Positions 1,420 to 22,867 of a stretch of 23,502 nt of DNA are shown here, piece by piece; the stretch's first letter is position 1, and each line of letters opens with the position of its first letter. Under the pieces are notes generated by a model. The model worked only from the letters and a program-made list of their open reading frames with translations. It was not told where the DNA came from and ran no database searches. The translations under genes were made by a program, and so were the position numbers. Origin of the DNA: a virus; the IMG/VR virus record IMGVR_UViG_3300036817_000341, positions 1 to 23,502 of that record. The stretch is one strand, 5' to 3'.

Positions 1420-1436
1420 TTAATAATCGTTATTAA
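1420..1436. promoter_or_regulatory. Operator-like palindrome, copy 1 (TTAATAATCGTTATTAA)
   Basis: 17-bp inverted repeat with one arm mismatch. It lies at about +5 to +21 relative to the promoter at 1447-1475, in the leader of the acidic protein gene. That position suits a repressor or roadblock site. Confidence 0.75.
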
Positions 1437-1446
1437 ACCGTCCCTT

Positions 1447-1475
1447 AATATAACCTCATATGTATCAAATGTCAA
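1447..1475 (-). promoter_or_regulatory. Sigma-70-type promoter, TTGACA-17-TATATT
   Basis: On the minus strand TTGACA (1475-1470) is followed by a 17-bp spacer ending GAGGT and TATATT (1452-1447), predicting +1 near 1440. It shares TTGACWTTT and GGTTATATTA with the promoters at 2676, 9114 and 13077. The -35 overlaps the stop codon of the upstream gene (1472-1474). Confidence 0.85.
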
Positions 1476-1681
1476 CATCTATTTATCATAAGGCTATCTA
1501 AATATAATTTCTTATATTTATTTACCCAACCTCCATAGGTTTTTGCCGTATTAGCTTCAAGCATTTTATTACCATTACTTTTACGGTTACCTTCAAGAGA
1601 AGAATTAAGCCATTCCAATCTAGCTTTTTCCCTAATCTCCTTTTGAACTTCTTTTGGTAAATCTCGTATAGAGATATTCAT
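1472..1681 (-). CDS. Small basic protein, possibly RHH-like (69 aa)
   Basis: It starts MNISIRDLPKEVQKEIREKARLEW, which looks like the strand-helix opening of a ribbon-helix-helix DNA-binding protein. The rest (KTYGGWVNKYKKLYLDSL) is basic and aromatic and does not complete a clear RHH. The ATG overlaps the stop of the 252-residue gene as TAATG, implying coupled translation. It is the last gene of the unit starting at the promoter at 2676-2704. The RHH call is an inference from about 25 residues; it could equally be a short helical protein of other function. Confidence 0.6.
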   Translation of the reverse strand: MNISIRDLPKEVQKEIREKARLEWLNSSLEGNRKSNGNKMLEANTAKTYGGWVNKYKKLYLDSLMINRC

Positions 1682-2439
1682 TATTTCAACAAATCCTCCT
1701 TAATCGAGTTATAAGACACCTCCGATAGGTAGCCATTATCCATACAGGATTTAATCATCCTAACAAACAACTCTGGACTTTGCCTACATATCTTTCTACT
1801 ATCCTGTACCCATACCAAATCTGCATTGGGAGCAATATAACTGGTATCCTTTTTCTCCTCCGGTTTTGGCACCACCTTTAACTCGGGCTTGGAGGTCATA
1901 CCGGCCAACAATTCTGGGGCATTAACCACTCCCTCTGCCTTATCCTTCTCCAATTGCTTTCGTAATCTTTCTGCCTTATGATCTACCGACTCCTTACCTT
2001 CCACAATATTCTTAATCTTCTTATCACTCATGGATGCCCTAATCCACATGGCATTAAAACTTTTGCAATTTAGAAGATCATTATAATTCTCTTTAGTTCT
2101 ACAAGCCACCTTGGCAATTCGAGGAACCAAAGAAGAAAAGGAATGATACTGAGTTTCCTCCTCTGACCCCTTACCATATTTTTCTCCTGCGGGTATACAA
2201 TAAGCTTTACAAAAACTTCTCCTTAACATTCCCTTAATTTTAACTTCCCCATATCCATATTTAACATGTGCCTCGTGGGCATCATTACATATATTAATCA
2301 TGTTTTGTCTATCATTTATGGTATAGGCACTTACTGATAAATCAAGCTTTGCTTGCACCGCCAATAAAGTGGTATCAGTATACCTGGGATCAGTATTGTC
2401 CCTTATATCAGTCAATTTAGACGTTTTTACTTTGGTCAT
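1681..2439 (-). CDS. Hypothetical protein (252 aa)
   Basis: No family recognised. Residues 1-155 look folded and mixed (a Cys-containing segment MLRRSFCKAYCIPAGEKYG, then FSSLVPRIAKVACRTKENY). Residues about 150-205 form a charged helical and linker stretch rich in Lys, Glu and Pro. Residues 207-252 (IAPNADLVWVQDSRKICRQSPEL onward) look like a small C-terminal domain. No Shine-Dalgarno is visible; the gap to the upstream gene is 15 nt, so translation may depend on coupling. Second gene of a three-gene unit (2670 to 1472). Confidence 0.7.
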   Translation of the reverse strand: MTKVKTSKLTDIRDNTDPRYTDTTLLAVQAKLDLSVSAYTINDRQNMINICNDAHEAHVKYGYGEVKIKGMLRRSFCKAYCIPAGEKYGKGSEEETQYHSFSSLVPRIAKVACRTKENYNDLLNCKSFNAMWIRASMSDKKIKNIVEGKESVDHKAERLRKQLEKDKAEGVVNAPELLAGMTSKPELKVVPKPEEKKDTSYIAPNADLVWVQDSRKICRQSPELFVRMIKSCMDNGYLSEVSYNSIKEDLLK

Positions 2440-2454
2440 GTTATTTCAAAGAAC

Positions 2455-2670
2455 TTAATTATGTGAGGTAATTTCTTTATATACCTCTTGTACACTTTTT
2501 CCACTATTTCTATATTTCTCAAAAAGAGGTTGAGGAATAAAGGCAACGGTAACCGCCATCTTTATTATTTCCTCAAACTCCTTAAGAGTTACCATTGGAT
2601 TAGCTTTCGCAAATTCGGCGACTGTCTTGTCCATCCTCCTTTGCATTGCCTCCTTATCTTTCTTACCCAT
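2455..2670 (-). CDS. Hypothetical small protein, possibly from a leaderless mRNA (71 aa)
   Basis: The frame can be extended to a TTG at 2688, but that codon lies in the promoter spacer, so the real start is ATG at 2670 (MGKKDKEAMQRRMDK). The -10 box at 2681-2676 places +1 at 2669-2670, on the ATG itself, predicting a leaderless message. The protein is mostly helical and charged: residues 5-25 basic/acidic, then TLKEFEEIIKMAVTVAF and QEVYKEITSHN. No family recognised. First gene of a short unit with the 252-residue and 69-residue genes. Confidence 0.7.
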   Translation of the reverse strand: MGKKDKEAMQRRMDKTVAEFAKANPMVTLKEFEEIIKMAVTVAFIPQPLFEKYRNSGKSVQEVYKEITSHN

Positions 2671-2675
2671 AATAT

Positions 2676-2704
2676 AATATAACCCCAAAAGGGGATAAAG
2701 TCAA
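2676..2704 (-). promoter_or_regulatory. Sigma-70-type promoter, TTGACT-17-TATATT
   Basis: TTGACT (2704-2699), a 17-bp spacer containing the inverted repeat CCCCTTTTGGGG, and TATATT (2681-2676). The predicted +1 coincides with the ATG at 2670. Same GGTTATATTA end as the other three promoters. Confidence 0.9.
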
Positions 2705-2721
2705 CTACTATTTTTATCCAT

Positions 2722-2747
2722 AAATCTCTGAATTCAGAGATTTTTTT
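2722..2747. terminator. Perfect palindromic hairpin, probable terminator, copy A
   Basis: AAATCTCTGAATTCAGAGATTT is a 22-bp perfect palindrome (contains GAATTC). On the plus strand it is followed by T7; on the minus strand only by TTTATGG. It sits between the stop of the gene at 2778 and the promoter at 2704, where a terminator for the upstream minus-strand unit is expected. The same element recurs at 13020-13045. It could also be a DNA-binding site. Confidence 0.65.
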
Positions 2748-2759
2748 GCCCTCTACCAA

Positions 2760-2776
2760 TTAATAACGATTATTAA
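2760..2776. promoter_or_regulatory. Operator-like palindrome, copy 2 (TTAATAACGATTATTAA)
   Basis: 17-bp inverted repeat with one arm mismatch. It begins one base past the TAA stop of the gene at 2778-3113. It is the only copy with neither a start codon nor a promoter immediately downstream; a hairpin follows instead. Confidence 0.7.
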
Positions 2777-2777
2777 T

Positions 2778-3113
2778 TTAGGCTATAGCCCCACACTTAA
2801 TACAGTAACCCTCAGTTAGTCCCGTCGCTTGATTAGTGCGTACATCAAATAAATGATCGCATTCTAAACCATGTAGCCTTTGTCTTTCGGGGTTATCGGG
2901 GGTATGTCTTTTTACCTCCTCCCCCAGCCAATAACGTTTCAGATACTGTACCTTAGCACTATGCCTATACTTGTCCGATTTCAGCAATTCGATGGTCCGA
3001 TCTACTATCTCCTCTACCAGCTTAGTTGATACCGGTTTGTCCACATATTCCAGCAACATGTTGCCAAAGTCCTCATCGAAGGGATCCCGCCAAGCTGTGG
3101 TAAAATTAATCAT
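2778..3113 (-). CDS. Hypothetical protein with C-terminal zinc-finger-like motif (111 aa)
   Basis: The frame has ATGs at 3122 and 3113. GGAGG is fused to the first and 9 nt from the second, so 3113 is chosen (MINFTTAWRDPFDEDF). The body is helical and charged (KLVEEIVDRTIELLKSDKYRHSAKVQYLKRYWLG). The end has Cys/His residues in ECDHLFDVRT and GYCIKCGAIA, a plausible CxH...CxxC zinc site resembling the short zinc ribbons found in many phage hypothetical proteins. Its start lies inside the end of the 37-residue membrane-protein gene (8-nt overlap). Function unknown. Confidence 0.7.
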   Translation of the reverse strand: MINFTTAWRDPFDEDFGNMLLEYVDKPVSTKLVEEIVDRTIELLKSDKYRHSAKVQYLKRYWLGEEVKRHTPDNPERQRLHGLECDHLFDVRTNQATGLTEGYCIKCGAIA

Positions 3114-3219
3114 AATCGTCATCCTCCAGGGGAGCCCTACGTAGGAAATAAATAATTATCCCTGCCATAATTATCCAAAGTAAAATGGCTCCCCCCAATA
3201 CCCAGCAACACCAACACAT
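3106..3219 (-). CDS. Tiny single-pass membrane protein (37 aa)
   Basis: An ATG at 3219 opens 37 codons ending in TAA at 3106-3108. The protein starts MCWCCWVLGG, has one hydrophobic span (about residues 6-25, ILLWIIMAGIIIYF), then RR and an acidic tail LEDDDYD. The positive-after-membrane pattern predicts the C-terminus inside. Support comes from packing: the ATG follows the upstream TAA (3221-3223) after 1 nt, and the gene's end carries the ribosome site and start of the next gene. Three cysteines in the first five residues are unusual. No Shine-Dalgarno is seen. Role unknown; phages use such proteins in lysis, exclusion or membrane recruitment. Confidence 0.6.
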   Translation of the reverse strand: MCWCCWVLGGAILLWIIMAGIIIYFLRRAPLEDDDYD

Positions 3220-3220
3220 A

Positions 3221-3418
3221 TTAATCATTAGTCAAGGGCATCATGTATTCCTTTTTACCTATATTTTTACCTATCTTTTCCTCAATGGCCAGTACCACCT
3301 TGATGGCCTCCTCTATTCGAGGATCTCCCTCCTTTAATTCGGCACTACCATATTGCCCTCCCAGCAAATGCACCACCGCTAATACCCTGTTGTAGGGATC
3401 TGTTTTTATGATTTCCAT
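3221..3418 (-). CDS. Hypothetical small protein (65 aa)
   Basis: The frame can be extended to 3451, but the ATG at 3418 follows a consensus AAAGGAGGT by 3-4 nt and cuts the overlap with the resolvase gene to 13 nt, so I use it (MEIIKTDPYNRVLAVVHLLGG). Residues 30-55 are predicted helical (RIEEAIKVVLAIEEKIGKNIG). No motif recognised. It sits immediately after the RuvC-like gene and is probably coupled to it. Confidence 0.7.
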   Translation of the reverse strand: MEIIKTDPYNRVLAVVHLLGGQYGSAELKEGDPRIEEAIKVVLAIEEKIGKNIGKKEYMMPLTND

Positions 3419-4002
3419 ACCACCTCCTTTGTGGGTTGTTGATTTTGCCAATAAAATCTTTTCCGATCATAAATGGTAATCCAGTATCGAGCAATCATGA
3501 TGGCATCAATTACATCATCACTGGCGGTACGGGCCAGTCGTTTAGCTCCCTCCCCAAAGTAATGAATAAATTGATTTCGGGTTACATTTTTGGGGGTGGT
3601 ACCCTTCCATTGCATGGGGGTCCACAAAACTATATGCTCATTTTTGATGTTTAACTTACCCGCCAGGTATCCCACCATACTGGATAGATTAAGGGTATGA
3701 TTTTGCTGTGCCGCAATTTTACCCCTCATACTGTTAAAAAAGGTGGGCCATTCACTAACAAAATGGGTGGGAGTAATTCCCTGTAATCCCAGGGAGGACT
3801 CCAATTGTAAAAAGGCTTGCTCCCACCGATACTGTATGGACTTGGTGGGATGCATGGTTATCAGTTCATAGTTCCATAGTCGATCATTTCTAATATCATA
3901 GTAATCACTACCCTCGGCTTCATTTAGATTTACCGTAGCCCAACCCATGGATCTTACACTGGGATCCAGGGATAGTAATATGGGCAGATTTGTCTTTTTC
4001 AT
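3406..4002 (-). CDS. RuvC-like Holliday junction resolvase (198 aa)
   Basis: The RNase H-like fold of RuvC is readable: LSLDPSVRSMGWA (Asp13, first strand), HFVSEWP (Glu84) and the C-terminal helix TASDDVIDAIMIARYW (Asp162/163, Asp166). These are the acidic residues that bind two metal ions. A phage-typical PMQWKGTTPK element lies at about 129-138. Such enzymes cut branched DNA during replication, recombination and packaging. The start has a good ribosome site, AAGGAA, 6 nt before ATG, and lies 83 nt inside the polymerase gene in another frame. Palindrome copy 3 sits 17 nt upstream, so resolvase expression could be uncoupled from the polymerase. The family call is confident; the precise substrate is not. 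Confidence 0.85.
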   Translation of the reverse strand: MKKTNLPILLSLDPSVRSMGWATVNLNEAEGSDYYDIRNDRLWNYELITMHPTKSIQYRWEQAFLQLESSLGLQGITPTHFVSEWPTFFNSMRGKIAAQQNHTLNLSSMVGYLAGKLNIKNEHIVLWTPMQWKGTTPKNVTRNQFIHYFGEGAKRLARTASDDVIDAIMIARYWITIYDRKRFYWQNQQPTKEVVWKS

Positions 4003-6079
4003 ATAGTTCCTTACCCAATTTAATAACCGTTATTAATTCTCGTCTAAACTCCTCCTTATTATGATGTTTTATCTCCGCTACCTCGGCAGCATTCTTAACA
4101 CTGACATATAACTTGGCTCTTAGGGGTATATTATTAAATAAAGGAGAAAATCGTTCCTCCATATTGAACAATAGGTCCTCCAATAACCTCACAATTTGAT
4201 ATTCCGGCAATCCCAGACTAATTCTACCCGCGCATTCATCATGGGTGGTACCCGTTAATACCCCAAAGGAGTATAATTTCTTATAGGGATGATATATAGC
4301 GGGATGCCAGGTCTCGGAATAACGATCTAATTCATGTAGGGTTCTATAGTTAGCCACCGTCATGGCTTTGGGTATACTCCCCGTCCCACATCCCTGGATA
4401 AGATACGCCACCACCTTGTAGGCATCATTCACATCCCCGCTATAAATGTGTCCAAAGGGATCTTTGATATATCCCTCCCTTATAATGGTCTCCCTAACTA
4501 TAGCTTGTAGTTTTCTAATAGCGGGACAGGCTCTATGTACCTCCTCAAATAGTTTTCGAGCCTGTTCCTTACCCATCCCCACATTGGCGGCAAACTTATT
4601 GGATCCCATACCAAAGTTTAACGCCAGTTTAATCGTCTTGTACTGTTTGTAAATACTCCAGGCAGGATTTACTCTGCTGGTTTGCCTATCTAGGGTCTCC
4701 TTATCAAAGTTGGTATGTAGTATCTCATTACAAATCCAAACATACTCATTCCAATTTTCATCTTCCCTATAGGCTTGCTCCCTGATCAGGTCCTTACTAG
4801 CCCAGATGTGGGCCACATTTTCGATTTGTGTGGAATCCAACCAAAATCCCAGCCATCCGGGAGGTACCAGTTGAATTACCTTGCTTCTCTTGTTTTGGTT
4901 TTGGAAGTTAATCTTATACTTGCTACCACTTCGAAATCTTCGGGTCCGTGCGGCACTTAGGTAGTAGGCTTTGGGAATCGAAACCTTACTGTTAGGGGTT
5001 TGCCCGTTACCCTCACCTGAATCCCCTGTCGATTTAGTACCATCTGTAACATTGCCAGAAGGTATATCGCCGATTGTCCCCCTATGGTTAGTTCCATTTC
5101 TTCGCTGTTCGAATTCTCCAGCTCGAAGATAACTTCTGAAGTATCCAATAACCTTGGTGATGTCATAAACCTGGTAGGAAGCATATATTAGCCAATCCCT
5201 CAACTTTAGGGTTTTGGGATCCACCGTAATATCCTCTATAATTTGTAGTTTGTCTGATTTACGTAGTAGAAAATTACCCGCCTCTGATATAACAAATTCC
5301 AATTTAAAGTACTCATGTAGGAAGGCGGTTAGTTGCTTATTACTGGCAATGTTAGGTATTTTTCCGTTGGTTCGTCGAGATGCCTCCCTTACCCATCCCT
5401 CCTTTTGCCCCTCCAACTTGGTAATTTCTGCCTTGATTTGTTCGAGGTCGATATACTCCCTACCTAACCATACCATCTCATGTAGAGGCTCCCCCATAGC
5501 AAGTTCTAAATGGGTATATACCTCCCAATGTCGAGGATGTTGTACTAACTCCCATAATACCCTGAATACATTTCGGGTTTGGGTAACATCATGCTTACAA
5601 TACCTTTCCAATATATCGCTGGGTGCCGTGTACATGAACTTCTTATCCAACGTACCCCTAATTAACCATTCATTTAACTGATATTCCGGTTCATGCCAGG
5701 CATCCTCGATGGATTGTCCCATATCCAGTATTAGATTTACCGCCTTTAGGGAATAACTGGGAAAGGTGGGATGTACCGTTTTTAATGCTAGGTACATATC
5801 AAATCGATTAATGGGATTTACCCACATACCATGCCTCCATAACACTAGATCATCGAAGTTAATCCCATTGTAGCTCACCTTAATAATTTTGGGATCTCCC
5901 ACTAGATTTGCAAAAGCCCTCCTTTCTTTTTTATCATTCAAATCTACCAATTCTGGGGTACCCTCTAATCCCACCTGAAATGCTAGCATTTTTAGTTTAC
6001 AATAGGGCGCATATACACTGGTGGTTTCTATGTCATAGAATACAATTCCCTTTTCGGGTATGTCCTTAAGGTATATCAT
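3920..6079 (-). CDS. Family A DNA polymerase with 3'-5' exonuclease (719 aa)
   Basis: Residues 1-190 are a DnaQ-like exonuclease: YDIETT (Asp16, Glu18), YNGINFDD (Asn71, Asp76) and YCKHD (Tyr160, Asp164). The polymerase part shows motif A LDSTQIEN (Asp415, Glu420; compare DYSQIELR), motif B KTIKLALNFGMG (Lys484) and motif C THDE (Asp614, Glu615). It therefore copies and proofreads phage DNA. No 5'-nuclease domain is present, as in T7 polymerase. Residues about 321-365 are a Gly/Asn/Thr/Ser-rich low-complexity segment just before the template-binding region. The start overlaps the upstream stop as ATGA. The end overlaps the resolvase gene, and palindrome copy 3 is encoded in frame (residues about 682-687, LITVIK). 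Confidence 0.95.
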   Translation of the reverse strand: MIYLKDIPEKGIVFYDIETTSVYAPYCKLKMLAFQVGLEGTPELVDLNDKKERRAFANLVGDPKIIKVSYNGINFDDLVLWRHGMWVNPINRFDMYLALKTVHPTFPSYSLKAVNLILDMGQSIEDAWHEPEYQLNEWLIRGTLDKKFMYTAPSDILERYCKHDVTQTRNVFRVLWELVQHPRHWEVYTHLELAMGEPLHEMVWLGREYIDLEQIKAEITKLEGQKEGWVREASRRTNGKIPNIASNKQLTAFLHEYFKLEFVISEAGNFLLRKSDKLQIIEDITVDPKTLKLRDWLIYASYQVYDITKVIGYFRSYLRAGEFEQRRNGTNHRGTIGDIPSGNVTDGTKSTGDSGEGNGQTPNSKVSIPKAYYLSAARTRRFRSGSKYKINFQNQNKRSKVIQLVPPGWLGFWLDSTQIENVAHIWASKDLIREQAYREDENWNEYVWICNEILHTNFDKETLDRQTSRVNPAWSIYKQYKTIKLALNFGMGSNKFAANVGMGKEQARKLFEEVHRACPAIRKLQAIVRETIIREGYIKDPFGHIYSGDVNDAYKVVAYLIQGCGTGSIPKAMTVANYRTLHELDRYSETWHPAIYHPYKKLYSFGVLTGTTHDECAGRISLGLPEYQIVRLLEDLLFNMEERFSPLFNNIPLRAKLYVSVKNAAEVAEIKHHNKEEFRRELITVIKLGKELYEKDKSAHITIPGSQCKIHGLGYGKSK
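4020..4036. promoter_or_regulatory. Operator-like palindrome, copy 3, inside the polymerase gene (TTAATAACCGTTATTAA)
   Basis: Perfect 8-bp arms around one central base. It lies within polymerase coding sequence, 17 nt upstream of the resolvase ATG and just before its ribosome site. This shows the site is kept even where it must also encode protein. Confidence 0.85.
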
Positions 6080-6282
6080 GATTGTCCTATCGTGGGAGTA
6101 TCCTCCTCTATGGGCTGTTCCGGCATATGTTGTAAAACTATTAATACCTTTTCTATTGCTTCTATTGCCTCTTCCCGGGTTCCTCTATAGGTACAGTAAT
6201 AACCCTTGGATTTCCACCCTCCTATACTAACCCGCAAACATATGGGATCTCGAGGTAATCGAGTAATGGATACATTGGTCAT
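6076..6282 (-). CDS. Hypothetical small phage protein (68 aa)
   Basis: Starts MTNVSITRLPRDPICLRVSIGG. Predicted strands (ICLRVSIGG, KGYYCTYRG) are followed by a helix TREEAIEAIEKVLIVLQHM and an acidic tail. The layout resembles the next gene upstream (6284-6490), which also ends in a strand-then-helix segment (YFTSLSDALDVMEELTALY), so the two may be diverged duplicates. The start lies one base after the upstream stop, and the stop overlaps the polymerase ATG as ATGA. No function recognised. Confidence 0.7.
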   Translation of the reverse strand: MTNVSITRLPRDPICLRVSIGGWKSKGYYCTYRGTREEAIEAIEKVLIVLQHMPEQPIEEDTPTIGQS

Positions 6283-6283
6283 A

Positions 6284-6490
6284 TCAAAATATCCCCTCCA
6301 GTACTAATCCCAATCTATATAGGGCGGTTAGTTCCTCCATTACATCCAGGGCATCAGATAAACTGGTAAAGTATTTATTCATAGTGCTTCCTAGAAACCT
6401 AATTCTAAAACCCCTCCTACACCTAACCACATACCACCTTCTTTTAAAGGGAGGGGGAAATTTTCTACTAAAGGCTGCAATTCGGGTCAT
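6284..6490 (-). CDS. Hypothetical small basic phage protein (68 aa)
   Basis: The frame extends to a TTG at 6505, but ATG at 6490 overlaps the upstream stop as ATGA, the commonest junction in this genome, so I chose it (MTRIAAFSRKFPPPFKRRW). The N-terminal half is very basic (FKRRWYVVRCRRGFRIRFLG), followed by a helix (SLSDALDVMEELTALYRLGL). It could bind nucleic acid, but no known fold is evident. It is probably related in layout to the 6076-6282 protein. Confidence 0.65.
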   Translation of the reverse strand: MTRIAAFSRKFPPPFKRRWYVVRCRRGFRIRFLGSTMNKYFTSLSDALDVMEELTALYRLGLVLEGIF

Positions 6491-7044
6491 AATCCACTTT
6501 GCCAAAAATGGTGCCAGTTTCTATACATGGGTAAGGTGTAATCAATTTTAATATCGATTTGAGCCTCCTGTGCCGCCTTACCCAATATTCGGGTTATATC
6601 CACAAATAGGGAGGGATCATACAGAGCCGCATCGGGCACATTGGTAATCCAAGCATGATTTACTCCCGCCTCCATAAATCGGGGTTTTACTCCCCAATAG
6701 GTACCTACCCTTTTCTTTAGAACCGAACCTTTGGTAAGACATTCACTGGCCAATTTACCCATACCCACCACTGAGCAGGGTTTATTAGCTATCATGAAAT
6801 CCTTTAGGACCTCAATATGGGGTTCCAGAAATCTTTTTCGTTCCCATGCCTTACTGGGTATATGCTTAAGGTTTCCCTCAAACACATAGGTATGTATCCA
6901 CCTATCCCGGGGAATGGATAATCGTTTAATCATCCAAACCAGGAACTGTCCCCCGTCATGTACCAGGGGTGTTCGTTCCCTTATCTCCTGCCAACTCCGG
7001 GTCTCCAGTACTATTAGTAGCTTCGGTTGGGGTAGATTCTGCAC
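6487..7044 (-). CDS. Uracil-DNA glycosylase-fold protein (185 aa)
   Basis: The pattern resembles family 4/5 UDG-like proteins: an N-terminal strand LLIVLETRSWQEIRERTPLVHDGGQ (residues 9-33), a helix (FLVWMIKRLSI), a central FMIANKPCSVVGMGKLASECL (residues 83-103; compare the family's 'VALGRxAaxxLL') and a C-terminal VPDAALYDPSL (residues 136-146) where active enzymes have HP. The usual GE/AxPG active-site motif is not evident, so it may bind DNA or act in replication rather than excise uracil. The only plausible start is GTG at 7044, with no Shine-Dalgarno, overlapping the upstream gene by 89 nt. It lies two genes upstream of the polymerase. Confidence 0.65.
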   Translation of the reverse strand: MQNLPQPKLLIVLETRSWQEIRERTPLVHDGGQFLVWMIKRLSIPRDRWIHTYVFEGNLKHIPSKAWERKRFLEPHIEVLKDFMIANKPCSVVGMGKLASECLTKGSVLKKRVGTYWGVKPRFMEAGVNHAWITNVPDAALYDPSLFVDITRILGKAAQEAQIDIKIDYTLPMYRNWHHFWQSGL

Positions 7045-7252
7045 GTAATTTGCCGGTTCTAATATTCCTATGGGTTACCATGCTTTGTAGAGTCTCCTGA
7101 ATAAAACCCAAACCCTCGGTTACCTTTCGAGGTCTAACTCCTTTGGACTTTGTTGCGCGAGCTATTGCCCTCAGGTAATATTCATTCAGAGCCTCTATTA
7201 CTAGATTCAATTCCCTCGGATTTAAAACTAGGTTCTCCCTTTCTATATTCAT
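6956..7252 (-). CDS. Hypothetical protein (98 aa)
   Basis: Starts MNIERENLVLNPRELNLVIEALNEYY after AGGA about 9 nt upstream. Residues 10-62 are helical (RELNLVIEALNEYYLRAIARATKSKG, EGLGFIQETLQSMV). Residues 68-98 are a disordered Thr/Glu/Gly tail, exactly the part that overlaps the UDG-fold gene in another frame. No family recognised. The ordered part precedes the overlap, as expected if the tail evolved over an existing gene. Confidence 0.65.
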   Translation of the reverse strand: MNIERENLVLNPRELNLVIEALNEYYLRAIARATKSKGVRPRKVTEGLGFIQETLQSMVTHRNIRTGKLRAESTPTEATNSTGDPELAGDKGTNTPGT

Positions 7253-7379
7253 CTATAAGTTCCTGTAAACTTTTATGAAGATTTCTTTCCGGTTCTCCAT
7301 AGGCCTCGGGGAATCTTTGTTTTAAGAATTCCAGAGCCGTAATGGTCTCCTTTATTGATATAATTAGATGTGAGATCAT
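7182..7379 (-). CDS. Hypothetical small helical protein (65 aa)
   Basis: Starts MISHLIISIKETITALEFLKQRFPEAYG. Residues 1-47 form two likely helices, followed by a polar tail overlapping the next gene by 71 nt. The ATG is six bases after a 10-bp G+C-rich hairpin (7386-7409) and has no Shine-Dalgarno. Initiation may be regulated by the hairpin or by read-through from the ssDNA-binding gene. Function unknown. Confidence 0.6.
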   Translation of the reverse strand: MISHLIISIKETITALEFLKQRFPEAYGEPERNLHKSLQELIDEYRKGEPSFKSEGIESSNRGSE

Positions 7380-7385
7380 ATTTTA

Positions 7386-7409
7386 AACGGGGGAGTTTTC
7401 TCCCCCGTT
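7386..7409 (-). terminator. Strong hairpin, terminator or translation-control element
   Basis: AACGGGGGAG, loop AAAA and CTCCCCCGTT form a perfect 10-bp stem on the minus strand, followed by TTTAAAATATG. It stands after the ssDNA-binding gene and palindrome copy 4. The U-tract is short (GTTT), so partial termination is as likely as full termination. It also sits six bases before the next ATG. Confidence 0.6.
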
Positions 7410-7420
7410 CTGTACCTAAT

Positions 7421-7437
7421 TTAATAACCGTTATTAA
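7421..7437. promoter_or_regulatory. Operator-like palindrome, copy 4 (TTAATAACCGTTATTAA)
   Basis: Perfect 8-bp arms. The TAA stop of the gene at 7434-8144 is part of the palindrome. A strong hairpin follows 11 nt downstream. Confidence 0.8.
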
Positions 7438-8144
7438 TAGGGCGTATTCTCGCGATAGGCCTGAATTACCTCATTATCACATTCCCCCTGGATGGAGAAA
7501 TGTTGATAATCCACTCCATTGTAATGTTGATAGGTTACCTTGAGATTAACTCCGGGTTTTTCCTTGGTTATAGCCTCAAAGGTGGCCTCCAGATTCTCAT
7601 CGAAGTCCTCATCCACGGCGGGTATCTCATATCCCAATCGAGCCAGATCATTACCTAGTGCCCTAATACCCCCCATTACCGGATCTCCATCCTTGTTTAT
7701 TAACATTCTCCAATCCACCAATTGATTTGCCTCGGAGAAGTCCTCCCCACATAGTTCGGCATTAATCCTAACTGATTGTCCCTTGGCATCGGGAGCCTGC
7801 AATACAAAGGATCTTATCAATGCCTCATATACCCCCGCTTTAACGTTGGTAGCATTATTGGACATGGGTACCGCGGCAAAGGCCTGAGCCAATGCACTTT
7901 TCTTTGTCGGTTTGGCCATGGTTTTAATCATCTTCTTGGGTGGAGGAGCTACCTCTTCCTCCTCGATTTCCTCGTCATCCTCCTCCTCGGCCATCTTGGC
8001 TATGGGTACCATCTTCTTTTTGGGAGGAGTGGGACGAGTTTCCTCCTCCAATTCCTCCTCCAATTCCTCCTCCTCCACGGGTTCGGGAGGGGCTACCTGT
8101 TGTTTGGGTAATATCTTACTTAGCTTCTTTTTGGGTGGTAACAT
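7434..8144 (-). CDS. Probable ssDNA-binding / recombination partner protein (236 aa)
   Basis: Residues 1-85 are low complexity, alternating Lys/Pro-rich blocks (LPPKKKLSKILPKQ, PPPKKMIKTMAKPTKK) with acidic blocks (EEEELEEELEEET). Residues 95-236 form a folded domain starting NVKAGVYEALIRSFVLQAPDAKGQ and ending DYQHFSIQGECDNEVIQAY. This resembles the SSB/DUF669-like proteins that sit next to Sak4-type ATPases in phages, and the ATPase gene lies directly upstream with a 29-nt overlap. A ribosome site AAAGGAAA is 9 nt before ATG. The role as ssDNA-binding protein is inferred from context and general pattern, not from a definite motif. Confidence 0.65.
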   Translation of the reverse strand: MLPPKKKLSKILPKQQVAPPEPVEEEELEEELEEETRPTPPKKKMVPIAKMAEEEDDEEIEEEEVAPPPKKMIKTMAKPTKKSALAQAFAAVPMSNNATNVKAGVYEALIRSFVLQAPDAKGQSVRINAELCGEDFSEANQLVDWRMLINKDGDPVMGGIRALGNDLARLGYEIPAVDEDFDENLEATFEAITKEKPGVNLKVTYQHYNGVDYQHFSIQGECDNEVIQAYRENTPY

Positions 8145-9090
8145 GTTTTATTTCCTTTGTTGGTTTTGCTACACTGGTGGTGGTCTCATCATCGACCCCC
8201 ACATACAGTCTAACAAATTCTCTTTCCGCATTTTGTCCCGCTTCGGGACTGTTCGTAAAAAATGATTGCCATTGTTTCCAGGGAGGATTATCACTCTGTG
8301 CCGTGGGAGGAGTTACAATATACTTGTTGGGTATATACACCTTTCTTATACGGGTTCCAGCCATGAGGTAATCACTACCATCGAAGGAGATCATTCTATC
8401 CCTATCCTTATTACCCCTTCGTTTCCTGCTAAAGAATCCATGCATAATCACATCCGATTGGGTGTGACAGAACTTTTGCACCCCTCCCGGCAGGCTGGTT
8501 TCCTTTTTAGGACGACCCCCCATGATTCGAGTTTCATCGGAACCCTTTTCGGTACTATGGGTAATTACCGCCACTCCACAACCCAGTTTTACCAGTCTAT
8601 TGTAAAACATTCGTATGGGTCTGGTTTGTAATAAATCCCATCCTCTACCAAAATCTCCCCCCTCCGAGGGATGGTCCACATGTGCCAGGGCGCAGTAGTG
8701 ATCCGAGGCCATCTTAGTTGCCATGTCTATGGTATCCACCACCACCATGCTATAAGGACATTGATTTTCGAGTTCCTCCAATAACTCCATAGCAGAGGTG
8801 TAAACTATACCATCCTCGTCTTGATCCCATCCCAATTTCCTTTCCTTAAAACTTCTATCCCAGGAGGTAATTACCACCTTGGGACAATCCACCTCGGCAT
8901 AACCCGCCTCAAAGGCCAATAGACAGGTATCAGGGCATCCCGAGAAGAAGGTGGTCTTACCCCATTTAGGGGGTCCTATCAACATATACTTCAAACGTTC
9001 TGGACGCCATACCGTGGGTTTGCTACCCAGGGGTAAAATACTACTATCCCGAGCTTTGTCTAATATTCTCAACTGTTGTGGCTGTGGCAT
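8116..9090 (-). CDS. RecA-like / Sak4-type (AAA_24) ATPase (324 aa)
   Basis: Walker A is LIGPPKWGKTT (residues 37-47) and Walker B SMVVVDT (114-120). A sensor-like VAVITHST (173-180) is followed by a segment ending in a conserved-looking GGVQKFCHTQSDVIM. This is the core of the phage AAA_24/Sak4 family, small RecA-like ATPases that assist single-strand annealing and recombination-dependent replication. The C-terminal 60 residues are polar and less conserved in appearance. The gene is first after its own promoter (9114-9142). Palindrome copy 5 separates +1 from ATG and no Shine-Dalgarno is present. It overlaps the probable ssDNA-binding gene downstream. Confidence 0.85.
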   Translation of the reverse strand: MPQPQQLRILDKARDSSILPLGSKPTVWRPERLKYMLIGPPKWGKTTFFSGCPDTCLLAFEAGYAEVDCPKVVITSWDRSFKERKLGWDQDEDGIVYTSAMELLEELENQCPYSMVVVDTIDMATKMASDHYCALAHVDHPSEGGDFGRGWDLLQTRPIRMFYNRLVKLGCGVAVITHSTEKGSDETRIMGGRPKKETSLPGGVQKFCHTQSDVIMHGFFSRKRRGNKDRDRMISFDGSDYLMAGTRIRKVYIPNKYIVTPPTAQSDNPPWKQWQSFFTNSPEAGQNAEREFVRLYVGVDDETTTSVAKPTKEIKHVTTQKEAK

Positions 9091-9093
9091 GAT

Positions 9094-9110
9094 TTAATAA
9101 TGGTTATTAA
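9094..9110. promoter_or_regulatory. Operator-like palindrome, copy 5, over a transcription start (TTAATAATGGTTATTAA)
   Basis: 17-bp inverted repeat with one arm mismatch. It covers about -3 to +14 of the promoter at 9114-9142 and ends three bases before the ATG at 9090, a classic place for a repressor to block RNA polymerase. Confidence 0.85.
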
Positions 9111-9113
9111 TCT

Positions 9114-9142
9114 AATATAACCTATTATGGGTAAAAAGTCAA
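9114..9142 (-). promoter_or_regulatory. Sigma-70-type promoter, TTGACT-17-TATATT
   Basis: TTGACT (9142-9137), a 17-bp spacer ACCCATAATAGGT-like in its second part, and TATATT (9119-9114); +1 near 9107. It drives the recombination/polymerase unit beginning with the Sak4-like gene. Confidence 0.9.
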
Positions 9143-9153
9143 GTTCCGTTTAT

Positions 9154-9564
9154 TCACGGAGACAACTTCTTCCATAGTTCTTCGTTTCTAACTAACTCCA
9201 CCACCGTTTCATGCCCCTCCCTAGCTTGATTCCAGGTTTCATAACGCCATTGATAATCTAGGGCTTCCTCTAAATTCTCTCCCTTAAAAATCATGGTTTC
9301 AAACCATTTGGGTGATCCACCAAATCCATGATCTACACATAGAAAAACGGTGCTAACTAATAATCCATTAACCATATCTCTTCCCACCCTTCTATTCTCG
9401 ATTACCTTCCACCATTCCTCCCATTCCATTATTCTCTGATGGGAAATTCTAACCACGTTGTGTTGCTCATCCAGCATCGCCAGGTAGGACAGATGCCGGT
9501 CAGCATAGTTGGCAAACTCCTCAAACGTTTTGCGAGGGATCAATTCATCTTCGTCCATATTCAT
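9154..9564 (-). CDS. Conserved phage hypothetical protein (136 aa)
   Basis: The second half carries VSTVFLCVDHGFGGSPKWFETMIFKG and YQWRYETWNQAREGHETVVELV. The pattern '...DHG...GxPxxFETM.F...RYxTWxxAxxGH' recurs in short proteins of many phages and some plasmids. Its function is not known to me. The first half is helical and acidic (MNMDEDELIPRKTFEEFANYADRHL). The ATG overlaps the stop of the nuclease gene as TAATG. It is the last gene before the promoter at 9114-9142, with no terminator between, so upstream transcripts can read on. Confidence 0.75.
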   Translation of the reverse strand: MNMDEDELIPRKTFEEFANYADRHLSYLAMLDEQHNVVRISHQRIMEWEEWWKVIENRRVGRDMVNGLLVSTVFLCVDHGFGGSPKWFETMIFKGENLEEALDYQWRYETWNQAREGHETVVELVRNEELWKKLSP

Positions 9565-10741: not shown

Positions 10742-10742
10742 T

Positions 10743-10759
10743 TTAATAACCGTTATTAT
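10743..10759. promoter_or_regulatory. Operator-like palindrome, copy 6 (TTAATAACCGTTATTAT)
   Basis: One mismatch at the outermost base. It spans the junction of two genes: the TAA stop of the 10756-10908 gene lies inside it and the ATG of the HTH-like gene is one base beyond it. Confidence 0.8.
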
Positions 10760-10908
10760 TTGTTAGTACGACGAGCCAACTCCTCATTAACCTCCCCCAA
10801 CATAGGAGTCACTTCCTCCCTTATACCTGCTATACCTCCAGCCAATGCCAATCCCGTACCTAACATAGCCAATTCATCATTATTGAAGGGTTTAAATCTA
10901 TTACTCAT
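10756..10908 (-). CDS. Hypothetical small protein (50 aa)
   Basis: A 50-codon frame starting MSNRFKPFNNDELAMLGTGL. Residues 13-28 are Gly/Ala/Leu-rich and moderately hydrophobic (AMLGTGLALAGGIAGI), followed by a charged helix (EEVTPMLGEVNEELARR). It could be a short amphipathic or weak membrane protein. Evidence for reality is the packing: ATGA overlap with the helicase stop and a TAA supplied by palindrome copy 6. No family recognised. Confidence 0.65.
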   Translation of the reverse strand: MSNRFKPFNNDELAMLGTGLALAGGIAGIREEVTPMLGEVNEELARRTNK

Positions 10909-12221
10909 AAATCTCTCTTATACTCCTCACATATTTTGGTGGCAATTTCAATCAGGATGGTTTCCTGATTTTTGTTCTCATCTATTTTTTTGTGAATGGA
11001 GGAATCGGGGAACTTGTCCGTGGCGAATCTATAATAGTATGAACTTTTTGAAATGCTACTCTTACGGTTGGTCCTACCCCTTGCCTGCTCATAACCCAGG
11101 GAAGAAAAGTTAGTCGAATAAAATAGACTATACTTAACATTCGCGAAATCATTAAGACTCGCACCACTTCCAATGGTAGCGATGGTAAGGGGTATTTTTC
11201 CACTACGCCAGCCCGAAACATTAAAATGGTCATGGCTTGTAAGTAGTGTACTTTTGCCAGGTAGTACGCCAGATAACATCTGGGCCGAGTAGACAAACCC
11301 CGTCCATATGATAGCCCTTTCACCGGCATCCAACAATTCTGCGCATATCTCCTTGAGTCTATGTAATTTAGATGAATTAACACCCAGGTAGTTTTTCTCA
11401 GATACCTTAACAAATCCATCCGATATTTGTTGTAGTTTGACCACCAATGACATTGCATTTTTGATCTGTAAGACCTCTCCCCTGTTTTCCAATAACCAAT
11501 TCTTAACCAATTCATGTTTGAGTTCCAGTTGTTCCGACGTGGGATCCACATTTATTTTTATGTCCCTTATAATCCGAGACTCTTTAGGGAAGTATACATC
11601 AATGTTATTTACCAGTTTTTGTTGTATGGATTGCAGAGCACCCTTCTTAGGAAATCTCTCCAAAAAACCCGCATAGTTGGTAAGGGGTATTTCAAACTCC
11701 TGTCTAAAGCCCGTGAGGCTGGAGGATAATTTCTTATCCAAATTCAATGCCCTTGCCTGTCCATATACATCCTCTATGTTACCCGCGGTCATTAGGGATC
11801 CCGACAATCCCAGCGAGGGCATTCGATGAGTCATTTGGGACAACATTTTACTACGTTTAGATTTGGGGTTCTTATACATCCACAATTCATCCGCCACTAT
11901 ACAATTAAGGGACTCAAAATCGATTATCAACTTGTTCCTTCGACTAAGTAACCCCACACTCATAAATCGGGGTTTAATAATCCCCCTTAATCCCACTAAT
12001 TTTATTTCATCCCTCCATTGTCGAAAAGCCCCGGGAGAGCAAATAATTAGGGGTCTAGGATGCTCCGCCACCATAAACATCCAGGCCAGGGCAATTCGGG
12101 TCTTACCCTCCCCCACCCTCCACCAGGCAATACCATTCTCCTCACTATGGGCAATTCTCTGGGCCGCCTCGAATTGCTCCGTGGTCAATAGGGGTCTTAA
12201 TTTATCTAAGGGGAGATTCAT
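10905..12221 (-). CDS. SF2 DEAD/SNF2-type helicase (438 aa)
   Basis: Motifs in order: Gln16 (TTEQFEAAQ), Walker A VGEGKTRIALAW (GEGKT, residues 37-41), motif Ia-like IICSPGAFRQW (59-69), motif II VADELW (DEL, 111-113), motif III-like LSGSLM (139-144), and in the second RecA lobe IIWTGFV (304-310), TIATIGSGASLNDF (346-359) and motif VI YEQARGRTNR (377-386). It is compact compared with cellular SNF2 proteins, as is usual for phage helicases at replication loci. Likely role: unwinding or branch migration in phage DNA replication. It begins inside the end of the AAA+ gene (20-nt overlap). Confidence 0.9.
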   Translation of the reverse strand: MNLPLDKLRPLLTTEQFEAAQRIAHSEENGIAWWRVGEGKTRIALAWMFMVAEHPRPLIICSPGAFRQWRDEIKLVGLRGIIKPRFMSVGLLSRRNKLIIDFESLNCIVADELWMYKNPKSKRSKMLSQMTHRMPSLGLSGSLMTAGNIEDVYGQARALNLDKKLSSSLTGFRQEFEIPLTNYAGFLERFPKKGALQSIQQKLVNNIDVYFPKESRIIRDIKINVDPTSEQLELKHELVKNWLLENRGEVLQIKNAMSLVVKLQQISDGFVKVSEKNYLGVNSSKLHRLKEICAELLDAGERAIIWTGFVYSAQMLSGVLPGKSTLLTSHDHFNVSGWRSGKIPLTIATIGSGASLNDFANVKYSLFYSTNFSSLGYEQARGRTNRKSSISKSSYYYRFATDKFPDSSIHKKIDENKNQETILIEIATKICEEYKRDL

Positions 12222-12966
12222 TTTCTATAAAGTTTATTAGGTCCATTACCCGGATGTCTCCACCCTTTCTTATACATCTACCAGCCCATAATAGAAAGAC
12301 ATTCTCAATTTCTGCCCCCGACAAATCGAATTGGGACAATCTGGCAAACTCCTCTATGGTAGGAAATATCGGAAATCTAAGGGGCCACTTGGCTTTCCAA
12401 ATTTGAAATCTTAAATCTTCATCAGGTCTTTCAAACCTTACCTTGGCAATTAACCTCCTTTCTAATGCCTCATCCAACATATGAACCATATTGGTAGCCA
12501 ATATTACCAATCCCGGGTATTTGCCGATCTCCACCAATAGAGCATTGATGGGTTCCAACAACCATACCATATCGGGTCCCAGTTTATCCCGATTCATTAG
12601 CATGGCATCACACTCATCCAGTAGTATAATGGGTAAATGTCTCTTCTCCAATCGAGCCAGAGTTTGTTCCCCCTCAAATATCTTCTTAATATTTCGGGCA
12701 AGTTCTCCAGGCTCATCGGAACCATAATCCGCCATTGATATGTTGGTTACCACTAGATGTAGTTTCTTACCTATATAATAGGCGGTAAGGGTTTTACCCG
12801 TACCGGGGGGACCATATAACAATATGGCGGTTCCCTGCTCCCTTATCTTATCCAAACCCCATTTCTTCCAAAGACTACGTTTGGCGTAGGCCTGTATGGC
12901 ATCCTCTATTCTATTCTCCACCTCCGGAGATAGAATGGGGATATTATATTTTTCCTTTTGCTTCAT
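12202..12966 (-). CDS. AAA+ ATPase (254 aa)
   Basis: Classic AAA module: Walker A LLYGPPGTGKTLTA (residues 49-62), Walker B IILLDECDAM (113-122), sensor 1 LATN (156-159), arginine-finger-like EALERRL (166-172) and sensor 2 DLSGAEIEN (214-222). The layout matches FtsH/proteasome-type AAA domains, without a protease or extra N-terminal domain. In this operon it probably loads or remodels replication proteins such as the helicase; the partner is inferred. First gene of the replication unit, with a promoter at 13077-13105 and a structured leader of about 104 nt. Palindrome copy 7 stands one base before ATG and there is no Shine-Dalgarno. Confidence 0.9.
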   Translation of the reverse strand: MKQKEKYNIPILSPEVENRIEDAIQAYAKRSLWKKWGLDKIREQGTAILLYGPPGTGKTLTAYYIGKKLHLVVTNISMADYGSDEPGELARNIKKIFEGEQTLARLEKRHLPIILLDECDAMLMNRDKLGPDMVWLLEPINALLVEIGKYPGLVILATNMVHMLDEALERRLIAKVRFERPDEDLRFQIWKAKWPLRFPIFPTIEEFARLSQFDLSGAEIENVFLLWAGRCIRKGGDIRVMDLINFIENESPLR

Positions 12967-12967: not shown

Positions 12968-12984
12968 TTAATAACCGTTATTAA
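12968..12984. promoter_or_regulatory. Operator-like palindrome, copy 7 (TTAATAACCGTTATTAA)
   Basis: Perfect arms. It ends one base before the ATG of the AAA+ gene, at the 3' end of that gene's leader. Confidence 0.8.
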
Positions 12985-15642: not shown

Positions 15643-16227
15643 CTAATAATGTGGGGTTGGTTTTAAATAGGGGTTTGTGGCCACAGGAATCTTATTTATC
15701 TTTATCCGGGCAATCGCAATTCCTATATACAATTGTTGTATAACCTGAAAGGTAACATCAAACTCATCCATCCAGGACCGAGCATTTTTGACGGCATTAA
15801 TAGCCGTTAGTAACGTATCCAATTTATCGGGAGGAATTTGTTCCTTTAGAATAACCCGAAAATGATAGGGAGTACCTCCATACTGATACCACTCAGACAC
15901 ATAACCCTTAGCAAAGACCGTCTGTACCATCTGCTCGACAGCATACTTGGTCCCCTTATGCTGATGCCAGTCCACGGACTTTGCAATTAACTCCCTTTTC
16001 TTTTCTACCGTTAGGTCCCCCTCAAATCCCTGCCAAACATCAACATGCATCTCCCAGGCTAATACATCCAGTAGGGGAGGTACCTGTTGATCAACAAAGG
16101 GCCAAAAGCAGATGGAGGGAATGCAATCATAAATCGATTGTAACTCCGCATCGATGGCCTTACAAGCAGCCTGTACCTGGGGATCATTACGAATTGACGA
16201 GGGAACTATATCAATGGTATTCCACAT
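15643..16227 (-). CDS. I: Tail protein I, P2 type (194 aa)
   Basis: The sequence follows the Tail_P2_I family: VQAACKAIDAELQSIYDCIPSICFWPFVDQQVPPLLDVLAWEMHVDVW, then KRELIAKSVDWHQHKGTKYAVEQMVQTVFAKGYVSEW. The hallmark 'WHxHKGTKYAV' helix lies at about residues 87-98. Protein I is a baseplate wedge component linking J to the tail fibre, and here it lies between J and a fibre gene exactly as in P2. The ATG is one base after palindrome copy 8, with no Shine-Dalgarno. Length is typical of the family. Confidence 0.92.
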   Translation of the reverse strand: MWNTIDIVPSSIRNDPQVQAACKAIDAELQSIYDCIPSICFWPFVDQQVPPLLDVLAWEMHVDVWQGFEGDLTVEKKRELIAKSVDWHQHKGTKYAVEQMVQTVFAKGYVSEWYQYGGTPYHFRVILKEQIPPDKLDTLLTAINAVKNARSWMDEFDVTFQVIQQLYIGIAIARIKINKIPVATNPYLKPTPHY

Positions 16228-16228: not shown

Positions 16229-16245
16229 TTAATAACGGTTATTAA
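16229..16245. promoter_or_regulatory. Operator-like palindrome, copy 8 (TTAATAACGGTTATTAA)
   Basis: Perfect arms with G centre. It fills the J/I junction: it starts three bases after the J stop codon and ends one base before the I start codon. Confidence 0.8.
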
Positions 16246-17675: not shown

Positions 17676-17692
17676 TTAATAACCATTATTAA
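17676..17692. promoter_or_regulatory. Operator-like palindrome, copy 9 (TTAATAACCATTATTAA)
   Basis: One arm mismatch. It begins one base after the stop codon of the 946-residue fibre. An ATG follows after one base (17674-17672) but is not the start of the 72-residue gene. Confidence 0.75.
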
Positions 17693-21341: not shown

Positions 21342-21745
21342 GATAACAATACCCTATATTCCTTCAATTGAACATCTACTCCCGCTCCAAAGAGAACTCC
21401 CCTACCATCAAACCATCTATGTTCCTCCGTGACTCCAATGCAAACAAACAGATTGAATCCCAGAGTTACGGGGCGCATTCCCACCAACAGGGGTGCAACA
21501 AATCCCTCCTTTACATAGGTTCGCAACACCAACAGGGAGGCCGCGGGATCACTACCCCATTGCTTATTGAAATTCATTCTAAAGGTTACCTGAGTTAATC
21601 CGGGCCCGGTGAATTCCAGTATGGGCATTTGCAGATGTACATCATGCTGGGCAAACCTATTGGTATTGCTAATAGTCAGGTCCGAAAAGGTATGGACCCT
21701 TTTCCTACTACACTCAAAAAGCAATATGCCAAAGGTTCCCAGCAT
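21338..21745 (-). CDS. U: Tail protein U, P2 GpU-like (135 aa)
   Basis: The sequence aligns by eye with P2 GpU: MLGTFGILLFECS at the start, NRFAQHDVHLQMPILEFTGPGLTQVTFRMNFN, then GSDPAASLLVLRTYVKEGFVAPLLVG and GVTEEHRWFDGRGVLFGAGVDVQLKEY. GpU acts in tail tube/baseplate completion. In P2 it lies in the tail gene cluster after the tape measure (T-U-X-D), not between V and W, so the order here is rearranged. The ATG follows palindrome copy 10 directly, with no Shine-Dalgarno. Confidence 0.85.
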   Translation of the reverse strand: MLGTFGILLFECSRKRVHTFSDLTISNTNRFAQHDVHLQMPILEFTGPGLTQVTFRMNFNKQWGSDPAASLLVLRTYVKEGFVAPLLVGMRPVTLGFNLFVCIGVTEEHRWFDGRGVLFGAGVDVQLKEYRVLLS

Positions 21746-21762
21746 TTAATAACGGTTATTAT
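21746..21762. promoter_or_regulatory. Operator-like palindrome, copy 10 (TTAATAACGGTTATTAT)
   Basis: One outer mismatch. The TAA stop of the upstream gene (21759-21761) is inside it, and the U start codon abuts its other edge with no spacer. Confidence 0.8.
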
Positions 21763-22028
21763 TTGGTGTGTTTAGGATCTTCGATGGTATAGCCAGGGGG
21801 CATCTCTGGTGCTCTCCTCATCTCGAAATTCGGTTTCCCCGGATTCTCGATCCCTGTTTTCTCCATCTTCTGAATACTGGCCAGGACCAAAATGGCTGCG
21901 GCCATTTTATCCCCCTCCGTCTCCTCCAAATATTCATCATATAAATCTAAAATCTCCTTGTTAGCCATAATCTTGGCGATCTCCTGTAGAGCTCTTAGGT
22001 ACCCCCTATTTCTTATTACAAATTTCAT
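21759..22028 (-). CDS. Hypothetical protein between V and U (89 aa)
   Basis: Starts MKFVIRNRGYLRALQEIAKIMANKEIL. Residues 8-60 are helical (ALQEIAKIMANKEILDLYDEYLEETEGDKMAAAILVLASIQKM), and the rest is a Pro-rich polar tail. No family recognised. Its position within the baseplate genes suggests a chaperone or minor tail component, but that is only context. The start overlaps the V stop as ATGA. Confidence 0.7.
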   Translation of the reverse strand: MKFVIRNRGYLRALQEIAKIMANKEILDLYDEYLEETEGDKMAAAILVLASIQKMEKTGIENPGKPNFEMRRAPEMPPGYTIEDPKHTK

Positions 22029-22678
22029 GATCCATTTCCGCTGCCATCTTCATTCTTTACATGTGGATGACCAATTGTTTCCGTTTTCTGGTAGGGCTTA
22101 ATGTCATCGACCCAAAGCATTCCCGTGATCTTAGTGTTAGGTGCATCTAAGGTAATTAAGGACGCCTTGATTGTGGCATTACCACTACAAGTAATGGTAG
22201 CATTACTACAGACAATGCTAATGGGATTCGGTGAATTAATCGTCAGTTGTCCCTGTCTGCCCGCCCTGATCTGTACCCCGTCCCTGATGATTGTGGTCAG
22301 ACTCTCCCGATATTCCATAATCGTTCCATCAGCATAGGTGATGTGCCTCGTATCGGGGTCCGTTATGGGAGGAGGATTACCGGTATTATAAAATGATCCG
22401 TCGATGAAGCCATCCTCATTGGAGTTAGGTAACATCGTCACATTAACATCATCACCCACCTTCGGACAATAAAAGGAACTGGTCGAACGACTACCCTGTT
22501 GTTTAACGGGAAGCGGTTTGGATACCAAGCCCTGCTTGTCGAGGAACTGCACCCGGCAGCAGACCTGCGTTTCGTCACAGAGTACCTCCGTCACCTTCCC
22601 GTGTCGGAACATGTTTCTTAACTCCGAATCCCTACCCGTCTTGTTAACCGGGAATACACTATCAGAATCGTAATCCAT
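22025..22678 (-). CDS. V: Baseplate spike protein V (217 aa)
   Basis: The gpV family is readable: residues 22-105 form an OB-fold (MFRHGKVTEVLCDETQVCCRVQFLDKQGLVSKPLPVKQ, YCPKVGDDVNVTMLPNSNEDGFIDGSFYN). The repeated short strands of the trimeric beta-helix follow (HITYADGTIMEYRESLTTII, LTINSPNPISIVCSNATITCSGNATIKAS). The end holds HPHVKNEDGSGNGS; an HxH near the tip binds iron in P2 V. It is the membrane-piercing tip of the contractile tail. Length is close to P2 V (211). It starts immediately after the stop of the small membrane-protein gene. Confidence 0.92.
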   Translation of the reverse strand: MDYDSDSVFPVNKTGRDSELRNMFRHGKVTEVLCDETQVCCRVQFLDKQGLVSKPLPVKQQGSRSTSSFYCPKVGDDVNVTMLPNSNEDGFIDGSFYNTGNPPPITDPDTRHITYADGTIMEYRESLTTIIRDGVQIRAGRQGQLTINSPNPISIVCSNATITCSGNATIKASLITLDAPNTKITGMLWVDDIKPYQKTETIGHPHVKNEDGSGNGS

Positions 22679-22855
22679 TTAGTGAATATGTACCCCAAAT
22701 ACTCCTAGAGAATTCAATGCATACAACAAAAATATCAGCCCTAAAATAACTCCAATAATCTGAAGTGGTTGTCCCTTAATAAACATTCCACAAATAAACC
22801 AAATCAAATATAGAACCAAGCCTGCTATTAGTAATGATATTAAGGTGGAAATCAT
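22679..22855 (-). CDS. Small two-span membrane protein (58 aa)
   Basis: A 58-codon frame starting MISTLISLLIAGLVLYLIWF and ending GVFGVHIH. Two hydrophobic spans (about residues 3-26 and 32-52) are linked by KGQPLQ. It is packed exactly: its TAA abuts the V start codon (22676-22678), and its ATG overlaps the arm of palindrome copy 11. No ribosome site is seen. Small membrane proteins in tail clusters can be holins or antiholins, but a better holin candidate lies next to the endolysin. Function unknown. Confidence 0.65.
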   Translation of the reverse strand: MISTLISLLIAGLVLYLIWFICGMFIKGQPLQIIGVILGLIFLLYALNSLGVFGVHIH

Positions 22856-22867
22856 AACGGTTATTAA
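22851..22867. promoter_or_regulatory. Operator-like palindrome, copy 11, diverged (ATCATAACGGTTATTAA)
   Basis: The right arm is perfect and the left arm has two mismatches where it makes room for the ATG at 22855. The TAA stop of the upstream gene (22864-22866) lies in the other arm, so stop and start are both inside one 17-bp element. Confidence 0.65.

Follow-up and report, generated by a model that had tools for sequence, protein, structure and literature searches.

Lineage-specific palindromes dispersed through genomes of apparently lytic phages: candidate sites of a phage-encoded dimeric transcription regulator

The DNA studied here is the IMG/VR virus contig IMGVR_UViG_3300036817_000341, of which a stretch of 23,502 nt (called the window below) was analysed; all of its real genes are on the minus strand. 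A palindrome, TTAATAACnGTTATTAA, is dispersed through the window, and palindromes of other sequences are dispersed in the same manner through related phages. As judged from sequence comparison, chances are about even that these palindromes are bound by a phage-encoded dimeric global regulator of transcription, for which they serve as operators and roadblocks. The copies would then be double-stranded DNA binding sites of one dimeric protein, which would be encoded by the phage lineage and would coevolve with its sites. Acting as a global regulator of phage transcription, this protein would block initiation at promoters overlapped by a site (1420 and 9094) and may form a roadblock or pause at the many sites without a promoter. 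The first-pass annotation of the window had already proposed a dimeric binder working as repressor and roadblock. Dispersed sites of dimer type are borne out by covarying arms, recurrence at orthologous places and two promoter overlaps, while repression and roadblocking are what we infer from them.

The window carries baseplate and tail genes followed by a replication block (AAA ATPase, helicase, exonuclease, Sak4-like recombinase and DNA polymerase). With up to two mismatches allowed, 12 copies of the palindrome were found in it against 0.1 expected, well above the chance level of shuffled sequence; at up to three mismatches the chance expectation was 0.14 and the largest shuffle count was 2. 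A reversed-pattern control gave 0 matches in the window, and beyond the 12 copies the closest match had at least five mismatches. Eleven copies had been listed before, and a pattern scan of the window confirmed all eleven start positions as well as the statement that four have perfect arms and most others are one base off (four perfect, six with one mismatch, and 22851 with two); a twelfth copy at 15797-15813, with two mismatches, had been overlooked. Their description as punctuation of gene junctions is broadly right, except that the copy at 4020 lies in the end of the polymerase open reading frame and that at 15797 inside gene 15643-16227. The upstream stop codon is overlapped or at most 3 nt away at six copies (22851, 21746, 17676, 10743, 7421 and 2760) and not at the seven counted earlier, the copy at 16229 being 4 nt away. 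An ATG is overlapped or follows the site end within 4 nt at six copies (22851, 21746, 16229, 12968, 10743 and 9094), the same number as had been given for a limit of three.

Scans of viral contigs with the exact pattern of the 17-mer returned 40 stretches, most of them isolated chance matches, as well as three true relatives (G001, L028 and L036). Together with G003, these are close relatives with the same motif as the window, amounting to 34 copies when the window is included. G003 overlaps both G001 (73-95% protein identity in matching genes) and the window (80-88% for several tail genes, lower for others), so the window and G001 appear to complement each other as portions of one genome type. 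Further contigs were gathered by a scan with the tail-sheath alignment, and several of them have their own dispersed palindrome: ATCATAACGTTATGAT in G002 (20 copies in 60 kb) and G007, TTAATAACGTTATTAA in G004, TTTGTAACGTTACAAA in G005 and L138, and ATCATAAGRYTATGAW in G006, while TTAACAYRKGTTAAC in L140 and L141 is tentative, with few copies. G008, a near-identical copy of G002, was left out of the counts. Scans with the Sak4 of the window added five more contigs at 36-48% identity, which carry 21 (G018), 9 (L282), 6 (L283), 23 (G020) and 73 (G021) copies; rTTGCAACGTTGCAAy has 21 copies in 26 kb of one relative, and TTTGCAGSSCTGCAAA has 73 copies in a complete 52-kb genome. The relative records thus hold 6-73 copies each versus 0-0.8 expected. 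Each of the seven contigs in which this Sak4 family was seen (the window, G002, G018, L282, L283, G020 and G021) carries palindromes, and the contigs with this module and palindromes span two virion types, myovirus-like and podovirus-like. G021 (L290-L292), which is podovirus-like and encodes a 2449-aa virion protein, is complete by its 123-bp terminal repeat. No relatives were found by a polymerase-based scan, and no comparable palindrome set was seen in terminase relatives (at most 40% identity). Palindromes were also absent from bacterial prophage relatives found by sheath (26-49%) and from L131, L133, L134, L135 and G009, whose sheath is 61-76% identical to that of G001 and whose G+C content is 55-57%.

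Copies agree with each other inside one genome, whereas between lineages both arms vary together and the length of the centre varies, which suggests one dimeric DNA-binding protein of shifting specificity. The arms are palindromic in all groups, with 69-91% arm pairing in every group, and a half-site core near YAAC/GTTR is retained in most of them. Sites with different motifs are found at the same genes. The start of the tail tube gene has a site in L036, G002, G004, G005, G006 and L138 (five motif groups), and a 180-206-aa gene has one in G002, G004, G006 and G007 (three motif groups); the tentative group of L140 would add one motif group to each. Among orthologous gene-start pairs with different motifs, both members had a site in 28, one in 71 and neither in 147 (odds ratio 3.3, P=1.6e-4, an optimistic value because the pairs share ancestry and are not independent). 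The conservation at orthologous junctions that the first-pass annotation looked to is therefore present, in that sites recur there more than expected, along with considerable turnover between lineages. The window and G002 have sites in common ahead of three genes, namely those of Sak4, 740-1378 and tail gene 15643-16227, whereas the AAA ATPase and helicase genes have no such shared site.

In the window, two of the four promoters of the form TTGACW-17-TATATT have a palindrome 3 or 10 nt past the -10 element. This strong promoter is itself recurrent, being found on the window minus strand at 13105, 9142, 2704 and 1475, in G001 at 6987, and on the G002 coding strand at 5702, 33587, 39562, 47228 and 48643 (the last with TATAGT). 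Sites of the window lineage and of G002 sit on stop and start codons, in place of the Shine-Dalgarno sequence; in the window lineage 1 of 33 site-bearing genes has a Shine-Dalgarno sequence versus about 40% of other genes. Within genes lie 2 of the 12 window copies (9 expected) and 1 of the 20 copies of G002 (14 expected). In G021, by automatic gene calls, 42 of the 73 copies are well inside open reading frames, and intergenic copies also lie just ahead of start codons; Shine-Dalgarno sequences are scarce in this genome (9% of genes without a site). In-gene copies are mostly in one reading frame, giving A-x-L-Q (mostly A-T-L-Q in G018). A palindrome occurs every 0.7 kb in G021, 0.6 kb in G020 and L282, 1.2 kb in G018 and 3.1 kb in G002, with a coefficient of variation of 0.38-0.54 versus about 0.9 for random placement (P from 0.003 to <0.00025), and in most records the spacing is more even than random. 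Gene length alone could yield part of the even spacing in the window lineage. On the coding strand, the asymmetric centre of the G021 site is CC in 43 copies versus GG in 15, and outside genes the counts are 20 to 4 (two-sided binomial about 0.0015, calculated by hand). Inside genes this bias could arise if Ala codons are preferred to Gly codons, an explanation that fails outside genes. Since the site centre in G021 is oriented with transcription, the direction of transcription seems to matter.

The genes common to the myovirus-like and podovirus-like sets encode replication enzymes and one protein without assigned function, that of 740-1378 in the window. This family is conserved between G002 and G021 with 27% identity over 125 aa (E=6e-7 in a single comparison), a palindrome lies just upstream of its gene in the window, G002 and G021, and its structure models have a helical core. 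The models gave no PDB fold match, and family searches with the 740-1378 product gave nothing significant, with phrog_12047 'ParB-like partition nuclease' (E=0.36) as the sole hint. At clearly less than even chances, this product is the best candidate for the binder. A phage protein, perhaps this one, would bind the sites with an effect on transcription; a host protein fits the lineage-wise site changes less well. A ParB-like product, that of G001 2969-3571, which has a homologue in G002 and whose gene is preceded by a site in G001, was considered and rejected, with weak matches to PHROGs of unknown function and no homologue detected among the podo-type records.

Several observations weigh against a global transcription regulator. 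Most palindrome sites have no nearby promoter; G020, G021 and L282 have many in-gene sites, and G018 has many in genes of both strands; the over-regular spacing is not required by a role in transcription; and the central base shows no orientation preference in the window lineage. Furthermore, no recognisable repressor gene was found, and the candidate binder has no detectable DNA-binding fold.

Among other explanations, the least probable is an element acting at the RNA level, for translation control, termination or processing. It would account for the occupied Shine-Dalgarno position. However, the window copies fold as RNA at about -0.1 kcal/mol, an Rfam search gave no match, and the in-gene copies of G018 lie in genes of both strands, so the palindrome is taken to be a DNA site; an RNA role is possible only for the lineages whose palindromes fold at -2 to -6 kcal/mol. 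The window copies lack the form of an intrinsic terminator (a GC-rich hairpin with a U tract; the minimum free energy is as above), and none of the palindromes in 1-13200 is among the terminator-like sites there. The first-pass annotation had also favoured DNA over RNA; its argument from C-A mismatches is weak, for the varying column would lie in the hairpin loop. It is very unlikely that the sites are origin, primase or recombination signals forming single-stranded DNA hairpins for the shared replication enzymes: the palindromes do track the module of Sak4, polymerase and helicase with a spacing of Okazaki-fragment order, but the window copies are confined to gene junctions, their AT-rich arms make a weak hairpin (computed as RNA), and a priming signal should not differ in every lineage. 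Hairpin promoters like those of N4 were also considered and seem not to apply, as loop size would differ between even and odd palindromes and a giant virion polymerase was not observed. Unlikely, too, are true lysogenic stoperators, with an immunity repressor silencing a prophage as in cluster A mycobacteriophages. Dispersed short-gap sites, promoter overlap, lineage-specific motifs and the orientation bias of G021 would all fit; against this, the sites are symmetric and not asymmetric, and no Phage_integrase (PF00589), serine recombinase (PF00239), ParB_N (PF02195) or HTH_3 (PF01381) was found in the window and six relatives by searches whose controls matched, an absence that is strong only for the near-complete 60-kb G002 and the 52-kb G021, the rest of the seven records being fragments, and a remote or novel integrase or a degenerate tyrosine-recombinase fold could escape the PF00589 search. 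In a further 61 proteins searched in Pfam at E<=0.01, none of these lysogeny or repressor families was found. Classical lysogenic stoperators, and a temperate-phage repressor in the strict sense as the earlier analogy implied, are therefore unsupported, as is lysogeny, and the phages of this clade are apparently lytic.

A minority possibility of more weight is that the sites load a protein which coats, bridges or marks the whole genome for segregation, compaction or protection, in the manner of KorB, ParB or Noc sites or as a Chi-like self mark, with secondary effects on transcription. This would agree with the regular spacing, the many in-gene sites kept mostly in one frame and the association with the replication module, and it has been reported that the dispersed operators of KorB are clamp-loading sites (PMC11790492). 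On the other side stand the lack of a ParB_N domain in the seven records, the location of almost all window-lineage sites at junctions (G002 included), the two sites overlapping promoter starts and the G021 orientation that follows transcription. A broader proposal, which we put forward tentatively, is that lytic phages have a DNA marking or coating system apart from lysogeny, travelling with a Sak4-type module across myovirus-like and podovirus-like phages. Its palindrome, placed every 0.6-3 kb and even dictating protein sequence inside genes, would be read by a new specificity-switching DNA-binding family, the 740-1378 homologues.

The features of the window are collected in Table 1. Besides these, a second inverted repeat, AATCTCTGAATTCAGAGATTT, occurs twice (13020-13043 and about 2722-2742), each time near a palindrome copy and a gene start. 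The sister contig G001 has genes for DpdA, a QueE-like protein, FolE2 and QueD (L011 7766-10660), and 7-deazaguanine DNA modification is probable there. An ArdC-like antirestriction protein with a zincin-like metallopeptidase domain is encoded in G001 (L011 1303-2214) and G002 (L233 6069-6947). In L028, a lyase-like gene (701-2131) whose product looks like a parallel beta-helix is not at the corresponding place in G001; palindrome copies lie at both of its ends (749 and 2128), as though the sites had been the entry points of a cassette.

Table 1 Palindrome copies, promoters and associated genes in the window
Positions	Strand	Feature	Remarks
740..1378	-	212-aa helical protein	candidate binder; homologues in G002, G020 and G021
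1420..1436	-	palindrome copy, 1 mismatch	10 nt past -10 of promoter 1475-1447
1447..1475	-	sigma-70-like promoter TTGACA-17-TATATT	precedes gene 740-1378
2760..2776	-	palindrome copy, 1 mismatch	
3920..6079	-	DNA polymerase	shared replication module
4020..4036	-	palindrome copy, perfect	last codons of DNA polymerase reading frame, 17 nt ahead of next gene's ATG
7421..7437	-	palindrome copy, perfect	reaches into stop codon of gene 7434-8144
8116..9090	-	Sak4-like recombinase	marker of replication module accompanying palindromes
9094..9110	-	palindrome copy, 1 mismatch	3 nt after -10 of promoter 9142-9114, 3 nt before Sak4-like ATG
9114..9142	-	sigma-70-like promoter TTGACT-17-TATATT	
10743..10759	-	palindrome copy, 1 mismatch	between stop and ATG
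12202..12966	-	AAA ATPase	shared replication module
12968..12984	-	palindrome copy, perfect	1 nt ahead of AAA ATPase gene ATG
15797..15813	-	palindrome copy, 2 mismatches	within tail gene 15643-16227; may be degenerate or a chance match
16229..16245	-	palindrome copy, perfect	1 nt ahead of tail gene ATG
17676..17692	-	palindrome copy, 1 mismatch	just past stop codon; adjoins ATG, likelier start further on
21746..21762	-	palindrome copy, 1 mismatch	overlaps stop, adjoins ATG; orthologous G003 junction has a copy too
22851..22867	-	palindrome copy, 2 mismatches	stop and start codon both within the copy; orthologous G003 junction has a copy too

A few temperate phages were already known to have dispersed operators, one binder serving each phage. 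What is new here is that, in a clade of apparently lytic phages with two virion types, all sites of a genome have repeatedly been replaced in concert. Two questions thereby become testable. One is how a DNA-binding specificity can shift although it has tens of targets; the other is what benefit a lytic phage draws from having a protein bound at intervals of about a kilobase. Because sequence is sufficient to detect the site, new genomes can be screened for it immediately.

The stoperators of cluster A mycobacteriophages such as L5 are scattered over promoters and short intergenic gaps in up to about 30 copies, their motif varies between lineages with the repressor, and their orientation follows transcription (PMC9283540, PMC6550527). 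The window lineage resembles them in its many dispersed copies in short gaps and promoters, and G021 in its orientation bias, whereas the podovirus-like lineage has many in-gene copies. The analogy fails on symmetry and on lysogeny genes: stoperators belong to temperate phages and are asymmetric 13-mers to which an immunity repressor binds as a monomer, and the present sites are 14-17-bp palindromes in phages in which no lysogeny genes were found. The SPBRE sites of Bacillus phage SPbeta are bound by MrpR and were first found in silico, their binder being identified decades later (PMC10516654). They are alike in being dispersed phage regulator sites discovered in this way, and unlike in comprising about ten peaks in promoter regions with a 15-bp motif and in being bound by a recombinase-like prophage master repressor, a family (PF00589) with no match here. 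The operators of KorB are palindromic, and the sites of Noc are comparable. Those of KorB (OB) on plasmid RK2 are short sites dispersed on one replicon and act in long-range silencing (PMC11790492). The present palindromes share with KorB, ParB and Noc sites their dispersal on one replicon, but are denser (one per 0.6-3 kb) and lineage-specific, and the CTP-binding ParB_N domain had no match in the seven records. HIP1 of cyanobacterial genomes is likewise a highly repeated palindrome found inside and between genes; it is an octamer of cellular genomes, whereas the palindromes described here are of 14-17 bp, belong to phages and vary from one lineage to the next.

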